From Saccharopolyspora rhizosphaerae (GTDB lineage Bacteria > Actinomycetota > Actinomycetes > Mycobacteriales > Pseudonocardiaceae): a stretch of 64,000 bases of DNA. The translations under genes and the position numbers were made by a program. This document shows, one piece after another, positions 12,682 through 18,616 of this stretch (its first letter is position 1; each line of letters starts with the position of its first letter). The notes under the pieces are model-generated. The model was not told the DNA's origin. It did not search any database and saw only the letters and a list, made by a program, of their open reading frames with translations. The stretch spans positions 1-64,000 of the forward strand of contig NZ_RSAA01000015.1 of assembly GCF_003931915.1 (NCBI RefSeq). Reading direction: 5' to 3'.

Positions 12682-14148
12682 ATGGTGGAGAGAACCGAGA
12701 GCAAGACTTCGCTGCTGGACCGCTACTTCAAGATCAGTGAGCGCGGATCCAGCGTGGGCCGAGAAGTTCGAGGAGGTCTGGTCACCTTCGTGACCGTGGC
12801 CTACATCATCGTGCTGAACCCGCTGATCCTCGGCAGCGCTTCGCCGACCGACGCGGGCGCCAAGCACGACGTGCTGGGCAACATCCTTCCCATCCCGCAG
12901 GTCGCGGCCGCCACGGCGCTGGTCGCGGGTGTCATGACGATCCTGTTCGGACTGATCGCCAACTACCCGTTCGCCATCGCCACCGGCCTGGGCATCAACA
13001 CCCTGCTGGCCGTGACGATCGCGCCGCAGGTGACCTGGCCGGAGGCCATGGGTCTGGTCGTCGTCGACGGCCTCGTGATCCTCGTGCTGGTCGCGACCGG
13101 CTTCCGCACCGCGGTGTTCAACGCCGTGCCCGCGGACCTCAAGGCCGCGATCGCGGTCGGCATCGGCCTGTTCATCACCTTCGTGGGCCTGGTCGACGCC
13201 GGTTTCGTGCGCCGGCTTCCCGACGCGGCCGACACCACCGTCCCGGTCGGACTGGGCATCAACGGCTCGATCGCGTCCTTGCCGACGGCGGTGTTCGTCT
13301 TCGGCCTGGTGCTGACCTCGATCCTGGTCGCGCGCAAGGTCCGCGGCGGCATCCTCATCAGCGTCGTGGTCACCACGCTCCTGTCGATCGTCATCGAGTC
13401 GATCTTCCACGCCGGCTCCTCCAGCGACACCGGTGAGACCGGCTGGAACCTGGGCTACCCGGCGCTGCCGGAGCAGATCGCCGGACTGCCGGACCTCTCG
13501 CTGGTCGGCGACATCTCCTTCGGCGCCTTCACGCGGCTGCCGGCGCTGGCCGCGTCGATGCTGGTGTTCACGCTGGTGCTGGCGAACTTCTTCGACGCCA
13601 TGGGCACGATGACCGGTCTCGGCAAGGAAGGCGGCCTCACCGACAAGGAGGGGAACCTCCCGGGCATCGGCAAGGCGCTGGGCGTCGAGGGCCTCGGCGC
13701 GGTCGCCGGTGGTGTGGGTTCGGCGAGCTCGAACACGGTCTTCGTGGAGTCGGCCTCCGGCATCGCCGAGGGCGCTCGCACCGGTCTGGCCAACGTCGTC
13801 ACCGGGGTGCTGTTCCTCGCGGCGATGTTCCTGACCCCGCTGTACCAGGTCGTGCCCGTGGAGGCCGCCGCTCCGGTGCTGGTCGTGGTGGGCGCGATGA
13901 TGCTGGGACAGATCAGCCAGATCAACCTGTCGGACTTCACCATCGCGCTTCCGGCGTTCCTGACCATCACGGTCATGCCGTTCACGTACTCGATCGCCAA
14001 CGGCATCGGCGCCGGGTTCGTCAGCTACGTGCTGCTGCGCAGCGCCACCGGCAAGGCCCGTGAGGTGCACCCGCTGATGTGGGTCGTGGCAGCCGCCTTC
14101 GTGCTGTACTTCGCCTCCGGCCCGCTCGGAGACCTCCTGGGCATCTGA
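12682..14148 (+). CDS. NCS2-family purine/nucleobase permease (AzgA-like)
   Basis: A 488-residue integral membrane protein with about 12-14 helices. The N-terminal FVTVAYIIVLNP, GLGINTLLA, DLKAAIAVGIGLFITFVG and FANFFDAMGT-like (LANFFDAMGTMTGL) motifs are those of the AzgA subgroup of NCS2 proton symporters, which import adenine, guanine or hypoxanthine. The sequence GGVGSASSNTVFVESASGIAEG matches the signature helix region around the substrate site. A GGAAAG ribosome site precedes the ATG, and a strong hairpin terminator follows the stop. Exact substrate not determinable. Confidence 0.88.
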   Translation: MVERTESKTSLLDRYFKISERGSSVGREVRGGLVTFVTVAYIIVLNPLILGSASPTDAGAKHDVLGNILPIPQVAAATALVAGVMTILFGLIANYPFAIATGLGINTLLAVTIAPQVTWPEAMGLVVVDGLVILVLVATGFRTAVFNAVPADLKAAIAVGIGLFITFVGLVDAGFVRRLPDAADTTVPVGLGINGSIASLPTAVFVFGLVLTSILVARKVRGGILISVVVTTLLSIVIESIFHAGSSSDTGETGWNLGYPALPEQIAGLPDLSLVGDISFGAFTRLPALAASMLVFTLVLANFFDAMGTMTGLGKEGGLTDKEGNLPGIGKALGVEGLGAVAGGVGSASSNTVFVESASGIAEGARTGLANVVTGVLFLAAMFLTPLYQVVPVEAAAPVLVVVGAMMLGQISQINLSDFTIALPAFLTITVMPFTYSIANGIGAGFVSYVLLRSATGKAREVHPLMWVVAAAFVLYFASGPLGDLLGI

Positions 14149-14161
14149 TCGAGCCCGCAGC

Positions 14162-14205
14162 GCAGAGGCGCCCGCGTCCGACACCCCGGACGCGGGCGTC
14201 TCTGC
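14162..14205 (+). terminator. Hairpin terminator after purine permease
   Basis: A 19-bp stem (14162-14180 with 14187-14205, one G-T wobble) and a 6-base loop, 14 bases after the permease stop, followed by TTCGT. Confidence 0.85.
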
Positions 14206-14463
14206 TTCGTCCGCCCACCGCGGCCGCCTGGTCCCACCCCGAGGCCGATGAGCGCCGGAGCGACGCGTCTCCGGCCCGGAGGTGGGACGCGTGGGGAGAT
14301 CACGGCCGGACGGACCGGGGTGGTGGCGCGGCGTGGAGTCGGGAGGTCCTGGAACTGCGCAGTTCGACCGGGAAGTTCGGGGCCAGATCTGCCGAACCAC
14401 TCGCTTCCCTGGTTAGGGTGTGCGTCCATTGGTTGAGAACCACTTTGTCCGATATTCCCGAGA

Positions 14464-14480
14464 TAGTTTGGTAGACTAAC
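14464..14480 (+). promoter_or_regulatory. MarR promoter with overlapping operator-like repeat
   Basis: A -10 element TAGACT (14472-14477) ends 6 bases before the GTG start, so the mRNA is probably leaderless. It overlaps an inverted repeat GTTTG-GTAGA-CTAAC (4 of 5 bases paired) and TAGT-N7-ACTA, consistent with autorepression by the MarR protein. Confidence 0.5.
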
Positions 14481-14483
14481 GAC

Positions 14484-14918
14484 GTGTCCGATATCGCGGA
14501 GCGCGAGCGCACCCTGGCGAGCCGCCTGCGGCTCGCGGTCGTTCGCCTGAACCGTCGGCTGCGCGCGCAGCGGGCCGATTCGGCCCTGACGCTGTCCCAG
14601 CTGTCGGCCCTCTCGTGCCTGCACAAGGCCGGCTCGATGACGCCGGGCGAACTGGCGGCCAAGGAGGGCGTCCAGCCACCATCGATGACCAGGGTCATCG
14701 CGGCGCTGGAGGAGAACGGGCTGGTGGTCCGGCGGGCCCACCCCACTGACGGCCGGCAGGCCATCGTCGAGGTGACCGAGTCTGGCAAGGCCCGCGTGGA
14801 GGAAGAGGTCACCATCCGCGAGCGCTGGCTCGACCAGCACCTCGCGGAGCTGGACGCCGAAGAACTGGCGGTGCTCTCACGCGCCGCCGAGATCATCGAC
14901 CGGTTGGCCAGTCGATGA
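14484..14918 (+). CDS. MarR-family transcriptional regulator
   Basis: A 144-residue winged-helix protein. Residues 35-100 carry the MarR domain: LSQLSALSCLHKAGSMTPGE, recognition helix PPSMTRVIAALEENGLV and wing HPTDGRQAIVEVT. It would act as a dimer, usually as a repressor released by a small phenolic or hydrophobic ligand. The EntS-like MFS exporter gene lies 29 bases downstream in the same direction and is the likely target along with its own promoter. The start at GTG 14484 fits a leaderless transcript. Syntenic with Rv0880. Confidence 0.9.
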   Translation: MSDIAERERTLASRLRLAVVRLNRRLRAQRADSALTLSQLSALSCLHKAGSMTPGELAAKEGVQPPSMTRVIAALEENGLVVRRAHPTDGRQAIVEVTESGKARVEEEVTIRERWLDQHLAELDAEELAVLSRAAEIIDRLASR

Positions 14919-14947
14919 GGGAGCACTGAGAGGCGGTACGCGGAAGC

Positions 14948-16252
14948 GTGGTTGCTCGGAGGTCTGCGGAGGGCGAAGGCGCCGAGGACCGGGGCAACCA
15001 CCCGACGCGCGCAGCGGACCGCGGTGGCATGTTCCGCTCGCTGCGCGAGCGCAACTACCGCCTCTACGCCTCCGGTCAGGTCGTCTCGCTGACCGGCACC
15101 TGGATGCAGCGGGCCGCGCAGGACTGGCTCGTGCTGGAGCTCTCCGGCGGCAGCCCGGCCGCGCTCGGCGTGGCCGTGGCGCTGCAGTTCCTCCCGACCC
15201 TCGCCCTCACGCTGTGGGCCGGTGTGTTCGCCGACCGGTTCGACAAGCGCATGATCCTGATCATCACGCAGAGCGCCCTGGGTCTGTGCGGCTTCGCGCT
15301 GGGGGCGCTCGACGTCACCGGGATCGTCGTCCTGTGGCAGGTCTACGTCCTGTGCTTCGTGCTCGGCTGCTTCTCCGCGGTGGACGCGCCGGTGCGGCAG
15401 TCCTTCGTGGTCGAGATGGTCGGCCCTGCGCAGCTGACCAACGCCGTCGCGTTGAACTCCATGACCTTCAACCTGGCCCGCATCGTCGGGCCCGCCATCG
15501 CCGGGGTGGCCATCACCGCCATCGGCACCGGCTGGGTGTTCCTGTTCAACGGGCTGAGCTCGGTGGCCGTGGTGGCCGGTCTGCTGCTGATGGACACCGC
15601 CCTGCTGCACCGGGCCGACACCGTGGACCGGGAACGCGGGCAGCTGCGGGCCGGCCTCCGCTACGTGCGGAGGCGGCCGGACCTCGTCGTGGTGATGGTG
15701 CTGGTCTTCTCGGTCAGCACCTTCGGGATGAACTTCGAGAGCACTCTCGCGGTGATCGCCCGCAACGTCTTCCAGCGCGACGCCGACGGTTATGGGCTGC
15801 TCATCACGATGCTCGCGGTGGGCACGCTGACCGGCGCGACGCTGGCCGCGCGGCGCAGCGCGAAGCCCGGGTCCCGATTGCGGCTGATGCTGATCGGTGC
15901 GGGCGTGTTCGGCGCCCTGGAGGCGCTGGCCGGGGTGATGCCGCACTACTGGCTGTTCGCGACGGCCCTGGTCCCGGTCGGCATCGCGATGATGACCTTC
16001 ACGACCAGCGCGAACTCGACCGTGCAGCTGGCCGTCGAGCCCACGATGCGGGGGCGCGTCATGGGTCTCTACATGATGCTGTTCCTCGGCGGCAGACCGC
16101 TGGGCGGTCTGACCGCGGGTTGGCTGGCGGAGGTCTTCGGTCCGCGCTGGCCGGTCGTGCTCGGTGGGCTGATCTCGCTCACGGCTGCCGTCGCCGGGGC
16201 CGTGGTGCTGTCGCGGCAGCGCAAGAGGGGGTTGATCCAACCGCTAGGTTAG
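14948..16252 (+). CDS. MFS exporter of the EntS (MFS_3) type
   Basis: A 434-residue carrier with 12 predicted helices. RNYRLYASGQVVSLTGTWMQ at the N-terminus, DRFDKR between helices 2 and 3 (MFS signature loop) and DAPVRQSFVVEMVG are typical of the group related to the enterobactin exporter EntS. Likely role: efflux of a drug or a siderophore-like metabolite; the substrate is unproven. It forms a two-gene unit with the MarR regulator. A near-perfect iron box overlaps its stop codon, but lies after the gene, so it cannot be its own promoter. Confidence 0.85.
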   Translation: MVARRSAEGEGAEDRGNHPTRAADRGGMFRSLRERNYRLYASGQVVSLTGTWMQRAAQDWLVLELSGGSPAALGVAVALQFLPTLALTLWAGVFADRFDKRMILIITQSALGLCGFALGALDVTGIVVLWQVYVLCFVLGCFSAVDAPVRQSFVVEMVGPAQLTNAVALNSMTFNLARIVGPAIAGVAITAIGTGWVFLFNGLSSVAVVAGLLLMDTALLHRADTVDRERGQLRAGLRYVRRRPDLVVVMVLVFSVSTFGMNFESTLAVIARNVFQRDADGYGLLITMLAVGTLTGATLAARRSAKPGSRLRLMLIGAGVFGALEALAGVMPHYWLFATALVPVGIAMMTFTTSANSTVQLAVEPTMRGRVMGLYMMLFLGGRPLGGLTAGWLAEVFGPRWPVVLGGLISLTAAVAGAVVLSRQRKRGLIQPLG

Positions 16253-16262
16253 GCTAACCTAA
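16232..16262 (+). promoter_or_regulatory. Iron box (IdeR/DtxR type) overlapping a consensus promoter
   Basis: CTAGGTTAGGCTAACCTAA (16244-16262) matches the 19-base DtxR/IdeR consensus except for its first base. A promoter reading right overlaps it: -35 TTGATC (16232-16237), 17-base spacer, -10 TAACCT (16255-16260). Binding of an iron-loaded regulator would block it, giving transcription only when iron is scarce. The box lies in the convergent gap after the MFS gene and no coding gene starts downstream on the plus strand. Confidence 0.8.
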
Positions 16263-16266
16263 TACA

Positions 16267-16350
16267 CGTCCGCTTCGTGGTGGGAGCGGTAGTCAGTTCG
16301 GGAACAGATCGAGCCCCGGTCTCCGCGAGGAGGCCGGGGCTCGATCATTT
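16267..16350 (+). ncRNA. Candidate iron-repressed small RNA (about 84 nt)
   Basis: Predicted only from context: a promoter overlapping an iron box, a start expected near 16267, and a 13-bp hairpin terminator ending at 16346. There is no ribosome site or credible short ORF between them. Its 3' end would face the end of the superoxide dismutase gene. Alternatives: the box controls an unrecognised leaderless peptide, or is an evolutionary leftover. Confidence 0.35.
16307..16346. terminator. Bidirectional hairpin between MFS and sodA
   Basis: Perfect 13-bp stem GATCGAGCCCCGG / CCGGGGCTCGATC (16307-16319 with 16334-16346); the loop can form an extra CTCC/GGAG stem. Followed by ATTT on the plus strand. 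Serves the convergent genes on both sides. Confidence 0.85.
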
Positions 16351-16399
16351 CCGGCGGCAAGAACGTGTCGGAGCACCCACCGCCGAGCTCTCCGGAGCG

Positions 16400-17029
16400 T
16401 CAGGCCGTGGGCAGGCGCAGCCCGCTGAGGCCGTTGCGGGCGTCCTCGAAGCGCTTGGCCACCTCGTCCCAGTTGACGACGTTCCACAGCTGCTTGACGT
16501 AGTCGGCCTTCACGTTGCGGTACTGCAGGTAGTACGCGTGCTCCCAGATGTCGAACACCAGCAGGGGAGTGGTGGCGATCGACAGGTTGGAGTGGTGGTC
16601 GCGCAGCTGCTGGGTGATCAGCCGCCTGCCCACCGGGTCCCACGCCAGCACGCCCCAGCCGTTGCCCTGGATCGTGGTGGAGACGGCCTCCATCTGGGCG
16701 CGGAACTTGTCGAAGGAGCCGAAGTCCTGGTCGATGGCCGCGGCCAGCTCACCCGTCGGCTTGTCACCGCCGTCCGGCGACAGGATCTTCCACCACACCA
16801 CGTGCAACGAGTGCCCGGCGAGGTTGAACGCCAGCGTGGTCTCCAGGCCGACGATCGAGGAGAAGTCGCCCTTGTCGCGGGCCTCGGCGATCTTCTCGAC
16901 GGTGTCGTTCGCGCCCTTGACGTAGGTGGCGTGGTGCTTGCTGTGGTGCAGCTCGTTGATCTCCCCCGAGATCGCCGGCTCCAACGCCGCGTAGTCGTAG
17001 TCCAGCTCCGGCAGCACGTACTCGGGCAC
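16400..17029 (-). CDS. sodA: Superoxide dismutase, Fe/Mn family
   Basis: A 209-residue cytosolic enzyme converting superoxide to oxygen and hydrogen peroxide. Metal ligands are visible: His in HHSKHH (N-terminal), His in [10 protein letters not shown], and Asp/His in the signature DIWEHAYY. A His in LRDHHSN stands where the M. tuberculosis iron enzyme has His145, so Fe is the more likely metal. The GTG at 17029 gives the family start [13 protein letters not shown]; the longer ATG form adds an unconserved leader. A GGAGG ribosome site is present. A Nur-box-like sequence lies about 40-50 bases upstream. Confidence 0.92.
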
Positions 17030-17065
17030 CGGGGTCTCCCTCCGCAGTCGGCACCTCATTACTTG

Positions 17066-17082
17066 TTGCCACCCTATTGCAA
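17066..17082 (-). promoter_or_regulatory. Candidate Nur (nickel) box upstream of sodA
   Basis: Read toward the gene: TTGCAA-TAGGG-TGGCAA, two inverted hexamers separated by exactly 5 bases. This resembles the tTGCaa-N5-ttGCAa site bound by the nickel regulator Nur at the Streptomyces iron-SOD promoter, with 11 of 12 positions matching. It is strikingly AT-rich for this genome. Assignment is by motif only. Confidence 0.45.
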
Positions 17083-17119
17083 TTGACCAAGTGTGGCCAC
17101 AGGGGTGCCGTGCGGAGGA

Positions 17120-18616
17120 TCAGCCCGCGGGCCAGGTGTGGACCGGGTCGCCTTCGTCGGCGAGCTCGACGTAGCGGCGCAGCATGTCCGCCAGCGCCGT
17201 GTGCCGGTCGGCGCCGTCGGCCTCCATCCGGGCCACTGCGTCGCGCTGCCAGGTCGCGCCGTTCTGCCTCGCCAGGCAGCGCTGCTCGATGACGCCCAGG
17301 TAGCGGGAACGGGCTTCGTCGGAGACCCCGCACGCCCGCAGCCCCTCGTGGGCCATCGGCAGCAGGCGGCGCAGGACGAGCTCGTCCGGTGCCACCCATC
17401 CGAACGCGGGCCAGTAGAGGTGCGAGTCGAAGCCGTACCGGGCGCCCGAGAAGAAGTTCTCCTCCGCCGCGGCGAACGACATCTGCGTCCAGAGTGGACG
17501 GTCCTGCTCGGTCAGGGCGCGTTGCGCGCCGTAGAAGAACATGGCGTTCGCGACGATGTCGACCACCGAGGGGCCTGCGGGCAGGACGCGGTTCTCGATC
17601 CGCAGGTGCGGGACGCCCTCCACCAGGTCGTAGACGGGACGGTTCCAGCGCCAGATCGTGCCGTTGTGCAGCCGCAACTCGTTGAGCTTGGGCGCACGAC
17701 CGTTGTCCAGCGCGGCCACCGGATCCTCTTCCTCCGGTTCCGGCAGCAGCGCGGGGAAGTAGCGGACGTTCTCCTCGAACAGGTCGAAGATCGAGGTGAT
17801 CCACCGCTCGCCGAACCACACCCTCGGCCGCACGCCCTGGTTGCGCAGCTCCGTCGGGCGGGTGTCGGTGGCCTGCAAGAACAGCGGGATGCGCGTCTCG
17901 TGCCAGAGCGCCTTGCCCAGCAGGAAGGGGGAGTTCGCGCCGATCGCGACCTGCACCCCGGCCAGGACCTGTGCGGCGTTCCAGTGCGCCGCGAAGTCCT
18001 CCGGCGCCACCTGCAGGTGCAGCTGCACCGAGGTGCACGCCGATTCCGGTGCGATCGAGTCCGCGTAGGAGCGCAACCGCTCCGGGCCGCCGTCACCGAG
18101 CGGCACGCCCTCCATGTCCAGCAGCATCTCCTCGCCGCGGGCCATGATGATCTGGTCGTTGAGCACCGCGTAGCGCGGGTTGCTGGTCAGCGTGGACGGA
18201 TCGAAGTGCAGGCTGCGCAACGTGGGCAGCGAACCGATCATCGCGATCTTCGCCCCGGCGTCGTGCGCCCTGGCGTCGGCGCGCTGCAGCGCCGCGCGCA
18301 CTCCTTCCTCCAGGTGCAGCGCGCTGTCGCCGGCGAGCACGCGCGGTTCGACGTTGAGCTCGATGTTCTGCTGCCCGAGTTCGGTGGTGAACACCGCTTC
18401 GCTGATTTTCTCCAGCACCACGGTGTTGTTCATCGACGGATTCATGTGCTCGTCCACCAAGCACAATTCCATCTCCAGCCCCATCTGTTGGTGCGGGAAG
18501 GAGAATTCGCCATCGGCGAGCATCCGCGCCAGCGCGTCGAGGCCGCGTTGCATCTTGTTCCGATAGCGTTGCCGATCAATCGCCTTGAAGGATCGATCGT
18601 CCACGTGCCGTCCCAT
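17120..18616 (-). CDS. Glutamate-cysteine ligase family (GCS2) protein
   Basis: A 498-residue ATP-dependent carboxylate-amine ligase. GLEMELCLVDEHMNPS near residue 45 is the metal/ATP-binding start of the GCS2 fold. TSVQLHLQV, GANSPFLLG and a WRWNRPVYD / LRIENRVLPAGPS region complete the active-site cleft. Family members join glutamate to cysteine or a related amine. In actinobacteria they feed gamma-glutamylcysteine to ergothioneine or other thiol pathways, but no egtBCDE genes are nearby, so the product is not settled. Start at ATG 18616; the gene is divergent from the repeat-rich region to its right. Confidence 0.8.
   Translation of the reverse strand: MGRHVDDRSFKAIDRQRYRNKMQRGLDALARMLADGEFSFPHQQMGLEMELCLVDEHMNPSMNNTVVLEKISEAVFTTELGQQNIELNVEPRVLAGDSALHLEEGVRAALQRADARAHDAGAKIAMIGSLPTLRSLHFDPSTLTSNPRYAVLNDQIIMARGEEMLLDMEGVPLGDGGPERLRSYADSIAPESACTSVQLHLQVAPEDFAAHWNAAQVLAGVQVAIGANSPFLLGKALWHETRIPLFLQATDTRPTELRNQGVRPRVWFGERWITSIFDLFEENVRYFPALLPEPEEEDPVAALDNGRAPKLNELRLHNGTIWRWNRPVYDLVEGVPHLRIENRVLPAGPSVVDIVANAMFFYGAQRALTEQDRPLWTQMSFAAAEENFFSGARYGFDSHLYWPAFGWVAPDELVLRRLLPMAHEGLRACGVSDEARSRYLGVIEQRCLARQNGATWQRDAVARMEADGADRHTALADMLRRYVELADEGDPVHTWPAG

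Follow-up and report, generated by a model that had tools for sequence, protein, structure and literature searches.

Iron sparing in Corynebacterium is controlled by DtxR through RipA, which is a protein regulator, whereas the system considered here would act as an RNA. The RNA systems of other phyla, RyhB, PrrF, FsrA and IsrR, are repressed by iron and pair with the leaders of iron-enzyme mRNAs including that of aconitase, which is a common target of iron-sparing sRNAs, MrsI included, according to sections of a review (PMC9410917). Among actinobacteria, MrsI (ncRv11846) is the one iron-sparing sRNA described in the review excerpts returned by our literature searches, which showed no other; in these excerpts it has an IdeR-type promoter box, a length of about 100 nt, a hairpin and a terminator, and an iron-sparing role, as the RNA predicted below would have. 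As for the regulator, the portions seen of a study in S. erythraea report that IdeR binds 19-bp boxes of such a type in EMSA, and that only sites at most 500 bp from a start codon were retained (PMC8464063).

Our analysis concerns a window, namely the whole stretch of 64,000 nucleotides from Saccharopolyspora rhizosphaerae, whose coordinates are used throughout. It indicates with good probability that the gap between an MFS transporter gene and sodA encodes an IdeR-repressed, trans-acting, base-pairing and iron-sparing sRNA of Pseudonocardiaceae, and the best reading of the sequence evidence is an RNA that resembles RyhB and MrsI in function.

The locus and its iron box

A gap of 147 bp separates the MFS stop (16252) from that of sodA (16400), and the features in and around it are as follows.

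14948 to 16252, + strand: MFS transporter gene, with its stop codon (16250-16252) inside the iron box
16232 to 16260, + strand: promoter by direct reading, with -35 TTGATC (16232-16237), a 17-nt spacer and -10 TAACCT (16255-16260)
16244 to 16262, + strand: DtxR/IdeR iron box CTAGGTTAGGCTAACCTAA, overlapping the -10 and agreeing at 18 of 19 positions with TTAGGTTAGGCTAACCTAA
16268 to 16346, + strand: putative sRNA gene with a predicted start and a length of about 79 nt as far as the hairpin foot, from family-wide conservation and models
16270 to 16289, + strand: SL1, a 7-pair hairpin with loop GUGGUG, nearly invariant over 76 loci
16290 to 16306, + strand: linker with the proposed seed AGUUCGGGAAC at 16295-16305, from its conservation and its complement in aconitase leaders
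16307 to 16346, + strand: terminator hairpin of 18 pairs with no U run, from folding and covariation
16353 to 16399, - strand: sodA 3'UTR with an s-SodF-like anti-sodN stretch (16367-16380), from a match to the sodN leader
16400 to 17026, - strand: sodA, a convergent Fe/Mn superoxide dismutase gene, from Pfam Sod_Fe_N and Sod_Fe_C

For comparison, 80 named loci were retrieved via their MFS protein, and 75 of them, from genera that include Saccharopolyspora, Actinopolyspora, Saccharothrix, Lentzea, Kutzneria and Amycolatopsis, contain the sRNA element. The distance between the element and the MFS gene varies among these loci, and in Lentzea the element lies on the opposite strand relative to that gene.

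The first-pass annotation had proposed an iron box matching at 18 of 19 positions and overlapping a rightward promoter, and this proposal was borne out. In a scan of the 5.82-Mb genome the box at 16244-16262 is the best, being the sole site with fewer than three mismatches to the searched pattern; five other sites have exactly three, and the reversed pattern, used as a control, gave none. Boxes with at most three mismatches were counted directly in 75 of 76 loci (the 75 named loci and the window), and the pairwise identity of the box over these loci, 0.56, is depressed by a 1-nt shift between genera. The promoter itself reads as claimed, TTGATC and TAACCT with 17 nt between them, and a TAACCT-type -10 is located 5-7 nt 5' of the conserved RNA start in all 76 loci, while a -35 TTG at 17- or 18-nt spacing occurs in 42 of the 76. 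However, a strict consensus scan of 14000-18500 returned no sigma-70 promoter and no terminator with a T tail; the promoter hexamers are poor matches to the consensus, and ATTTCC instead of a U run follows the hairpin. The promoter and the terminator therefore rest on conservation and not on consensus.

Distribution and structure of the RNA

With 16180-16420 as the query, blastn gave matches with E values of at most 4e-20 in 24 of 25 genomes from the same family, and in more distant genomes of the family the match begins within the iron box. A model of the sRNA (R1), built from 41 sequences, matched 81 of 397 genomes over the order, namely 78 of the 79 in Pseudonocardiaceae (best E 7.7e-10 or lower) and 3 of the 318 outside it (E 2e-4 to 8e-4); the latter three, together with three weak extra matches inside the family, have neither the box nor the SL1 core and were rejected as true copies. 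In a second set 30 of 32 family genomes matched (one genome being repeated), and combined, 108 of 110 distinct Pseudonocardiaceae genomes match R1, the two with no R1 match being G287 and G421. In two of the 108 (G023 and G436) the form is diverged, with a box-like site and the SL1 loop kept and the linker changed. The rejected weak R1 matches are those in G274, G088, G362, G107 (twice) and G051, and weak second matches also occur in G423 and G416. Extra copies of the sRNA, two in G020 and three each in G212 and G267, each follow a box-like site. A plasmid search gave no copy of the sRNA, and viral contigs gave no match to one exact 25-mer of it.

Conservation is concentrated in the RNA core. 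Mean ungapped pairwise identity over the 76 loci is 0.997 in SL1 and 0.93 in the linker, with 0.38 upstream and 0.30 far downstream, so that the flanks seem unrelated, and all 99 elements (75 distinct ones) contain the 15-mer GCTTCGTGGTGGGAG without a change. Judging from the sequence, 16268 is the most likely start of the RNA, and its length to the hairpin foot is 73-92 nt across the 99 elements.

The stretch 16265-16358 folds at -61.4 kcal/mol versus -37.5 kcal/mol in shuffles (z -7.1, with 0 of 200 shuffles as good), and the perfect 13-bp hairpin noticed earlier is present with all 13 pairs and can be extended to the 18-pair stem at 16307-16346. In the predicted fold in the window, nt 23-33 of the sRNA are unpaired, while nt 34-37, which are part of the seed, are paired with the tail. 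Over the whole structure 94.2% of the alignment cells are paired, and 86 cells are doubly changed in a compensatory manner versus 26.4 in shuffles (0 of 500). The terminator stem varies in sequence with its pairing kept, and SL1 barely varies, having two variable pairs, one of which shows a double change from C-G to U-A. As to the terminator claimed by the first-pass annotation, its hairpin is thus conserved and covaries, but the scan for a T-tailed terminator was negative and no U run follows; the hairpin probably serves both strands.

Regarding coding potential, no conserved ORF was found between the promoter and the terminator, and some relatives have core indels that would break a reading frame, which count against a conserved one. 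The earlier statement that no gene starts in between holds to this extent, but a GTG ORF (16277-17086), antisense to sodA, overlaps the sRNA. Altogether, the comparison of this gap in relatives revealed that box, core and hairpin are conserved together and that the terminator stem has compensatory changes, and this joint conservation and covariation argue that the gap encodes an iron-repressed sRNA and not a protein, with iron control and expression predicted from the sequence.

Complementarity to aconitase leaders

The strongest signal for a target comes from aconitase. We compared the aconitase (acn) leaders from 60 Pseudonocardiaceae genomes with the linker, using start codons set by script, one of which (in G247) has no start codon at the position used; in the home genome the AcnA identity was confirmed by NCBIfam. 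On average, the longest uninterrupted complement to the linker measures 8.5 nt, versus 5.3 nt in dinucleotide shuffles. Complements of at least 8 nt occur in 34 of the 60 leaders versus 1.8 expected, and 25 of the 60 have complements of 10 nt or more versus 0.2 expected. When the linker was permuted in 200 trials, complements of at least 8 nt were found in 0.94 leaders on average with a maximum of 24, versus 34 for the real linker, and when similar leaders were collapsed to 35, at least 8 nt remained in 18 and at least 10 nt in 12. Of the 34 sites, 30 begin 23-52 nt upstream of the start codon, and the registers of the matches slide along one 18-nt complement, which fits base pairing and not a fixed protein site.

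Control leaders behave differently, with complements of at least 8 nt in 3 of 76 for MarR, 0 of 67 for MFS (where a start at 15028 is assumed), 0 of 28 for GCS2 and 2 of 54 for SodA, and none of these has a complement of at least 10 nt. Among all 1,672 called leaders of the home genome, at least 8 nt is reached in 30 and at least 10 nt in 4. The 11-mer GTTCCCGAACT, which is the complement of sRNA nt 28-38, has eight occurrences in the home genome, namely one in the sRNA itself, one 38 nt before the aconitase start, one before a molybdenum hydroxylase subunit, one before a presumably FKBP-like gene, and four elsewhere.

Not all genomes follow this pattern. The complement is shorter than 8 nt in 26 of the 60 acn leaders and shorter than 7 nt in 15, G287 being among the 15, and in G023 and G436, which have the altered linker, the acn leader never matches its own linker by more than 6 nt. 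The SL1 loop as a second seed gave no clear signal in acn leaders, with a mean longest match of 5.6 nt. We also observed in G287, where the model detected no sRNA, the sequence GCTCCCACCACG in the acn leader, a 12-nt complement of the SL1 loop.

Complementarity of the linker to iron-enzyme leaders is found in the compared sequences for aconitase and, in two genera, for QcrC. The QcrC leaders of G247 and G426 have a 12-nt complement each; the identity of QcrC is given by NF050122 well above cut-off, and in G426 an in-frame ATG is located 30 nt after the start of the site. We regard this pair as suggestive of a further target.

The sodA neighbour and its s-SodF-like element

The first-pass annotation had taken the neighbour as an iron-type superoxide dismutase and had suggested it as a target of the sRNA. 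The Pfam domains Sod_Fe_N and Sod_Fe_C agree with the family, but all NCBIfam [Mn] and [Fe] models score below cut-off, hence the metal of SodA is not settled. As a direct target sodA was rejected, since its leader match counts (at least 8 nt in 2 of 54) equal background and the duplex predictions have no consistent site.

Another signal is found in the sodA 3'UTR. The + strand at 16367-16380 is GTCGGAGCACCCAC, identical at 13 of 14 nt to the home-genome sodN leader (L199, near 1436), which means that the sodA transcript would be complementary to the sodN leader. The sequence GTCGGAGCACTCA precedes sodN in 17 of 17 same-genus loci and in 0 of 7 others, and in 40 of the 75 named loci the 7-mer GTCGGAG is present no more than about 125 nt beyond the terminator. 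According to the parts consulted of the report on s-SodF in Streptomyces coelicolor, this processed and stable sRNA, which destabilises sodN mRNA, likewise has an anti-sodN stretch and a hairpin (PMC3919588). The present element is predicted only and would be a separate RNA, the opposite-strand neighbour of the sRNA, and in many genomes both converge on one hairpin. An s-SodF-like element outside Streptomyces is thereby predicted.

Comparison with MrsI and other iron-sparing RNAs

In Mycobacterium-like genomes, recognised by PE proteins, 8 of 14 loci beside BlaI hold an RNA that has an IdeR-like box and contains GTCCTGAGGGCTGCAG, and these eight fit the place and layout of MrsI as given in excerpts of reviews. 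A model built from them (R2) recovers three held-out loci (E 1e-15 to 8e-15) and finds 0 of 120 Pseudonocardiaceae genomes at E 0.01, in a search with stricter filters and no positive genome. A strong R2 match (E 5e-15) was also seen at L174 2804-2900 in G045, of family f8 and genus g46 and not of the Mycobacterium-like g11.

The sRNA and MrsI have no sequence core in common. MrsI differs in sequence and locus, as blaI was not found beside the sRNA, whose neighbours are MFS/sodA and others, the home BlaI-like genes being on other contigs, and R1 has no convincing copy outside Pseudonocardiaceae in the order sample. The two RNAs thus seem similar in layout and not homologous by any test run. 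With regard to RyhB, PrrF, FsrA and IsrR, their repressor is Fur, whereas here a DtxR/IdeR box is found and Rfam gave no match above gathering, its sole output being two microRNA matches below threshold, both to the hairpin; moreover, the conserved segments are G-rich in this sRNA and C-rich in those four. The sRNA shows no sequence relationship to MrsI, and it seems to have arrived at aconitase by convergence, as did RyhB, FsrA and IsrR.

Proposed mechanism and alternative explanations

In the mechanism we favour, Fe-IdeR would occupy the box over the -10 and block transcription when iron is plentiful. When iron is scarce, an RNA of about 79 nt ending at the hairpin would be made, as its anatomy and conservation suggest, and its single-stranded linker AGUCAGUUCGGGAAC would pair with the acnA mRNA leader, mostly 23-52 nt before the start codon, and presumably lower translation or stability. 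The mRNAs of qcrC (cytochrome bc1) and of other iron, haem or Fe-S proteins are weaker candidate targets, while the invariant SL1 loop may be a second seed, or an element for stability or protein binding. A more elaborate scheme, which we put forward tentatively and hold to be doubtful, is that the MFS-sodA gap forms a two-metal RNA switch of two convergent sRNAs with one two-way terminator, where one strand would give the iron-sparing RNA under IdeR control and the opposite strand a processed s-SodF. On iron starvation the former would be switched on and act against acn, qcrC and further iron enzymes, and convergent transcription would also damp Fe-SOD and s-SodF and release Ni-SOD. If this were true, the adjacency in about half of the loci would be selected and not incidental.

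Several other explanations were weighed against a trans-acting sRNA. It is improbable that the RNA or its read-through acts only in cis, as antisense to or by transcriptional interference on the convergent sodA/s-SodF; sodA does directly adjoin in about 38 of the 75 named loci and the hairpin seems shared, but elsewhere sodA is 0.4-2.4 kb off or absent from the flank with the core equally invariant, and the conserved complementarity is to aconitase, an unlinked gene. We consider it quite improbable that the acn leader match is a protein binding site common to both sequences, as the near-palindromic GTTCCCGAAC and the GTTC-NN-GAAC symmetry at the home-genome site might suggest, since other genomes match asymmetric windows of the same 18-nt complement (GAACTGACTG, CCGAACTGACT) and what is matched is the complement of the RNA strand.

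The RNA might derive from the 3' end of the MFS mRNA, serve as the mRNA of a small peptide or reflect a decayed promoter, in favour of which are the MFS stop codon inside the box and the overlapping ORF; these readings are nevertheless very unlikely, because the element has its own boxed promoter, persists hundreds of bases from the MFS gene or on the other strand, is nearly invariant, and has core indels that break frames. Least credible of all is homology with MrsI, which the regulator type, the length and the layout would support as far as the review excerpts describe them, and against which stand the R2 search of the family (0 of 120), the lack of a common sequence core and the different neighbours.

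A trans-acting iron-sparing sRNA that is nearly universal in Pseudonocardiaceae, a family making many antibiotics, would account for the way in which aconitase and respiration track iron in Saccharopolyspora and Amycolatopsis; its proposed seed is short, and its proposed target lends itself to testing. Pseudonocardiaceae are not known to have Hfq, and if it is absent, the sRNA would also suit the study of pairing without that chaperone. Our literature searches found no published description of this sRNA. The parts seen of an RNA-seq report on S. erythraea give 190 putative ncRNAs (PMC3610266, GEO GSE39722), among which the interval may be listed without a function.

Other candidate targets

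When about 2.06 Mb of the home genome was scanned without bias, 9 of 1,672 leaders had linker matches of at least 9 nt. The home-genome leader matches other than acn look like the tail of chance, and most single-genome target matches mean little. Accordingly, citrate synthase and two genes that we take to be IlvD-like and FKBP-like were set aside as target evidence, their matches being at the level of this tail. In citrate synthase (window 39030, + strand), GTTCCCGAA, a 9-nt linker complement at chance level, lies across the start codon. A cruder scan for complements of the core, covering leaders in part of the home genome, had first pointed to acn and to the large subunit of a molybdenum hydroxylase (below the NCBIfam cut-off).

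A 12-mer scan of the 60 genomes gave 129 matches versus 6 for the reversed control, which overstates the enrichment, as many of the matches are the sRNA itself or coding Pro-Glu-Leu-Thr. We read 55 non-self sites and left out 12 others, and three more are aconitase sites already known. The sites include the acn leader in G243, the QcrC leaders of G247 and G426 described above, a hemerythrin leader in G437, a SufS-type desulfurase leader in G420 (a fragment below cut-off), the start of a [2Fe-2S] subunit in G212, where the site encodes Pro-Glu-Leu-Thr, and weakly a molybdenum hydroxylase-like gene in G000; apart from acn and QcrC these are single cases, and the remaining sites are mostly intragenic or unclear. 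In two Saccharopolyspora genomes (L470, L473), a 12-nt linker complement is located right after the EgtD start codon, where it encodes Pro-Glu-Leu-Thr and may be a coding coincidence.
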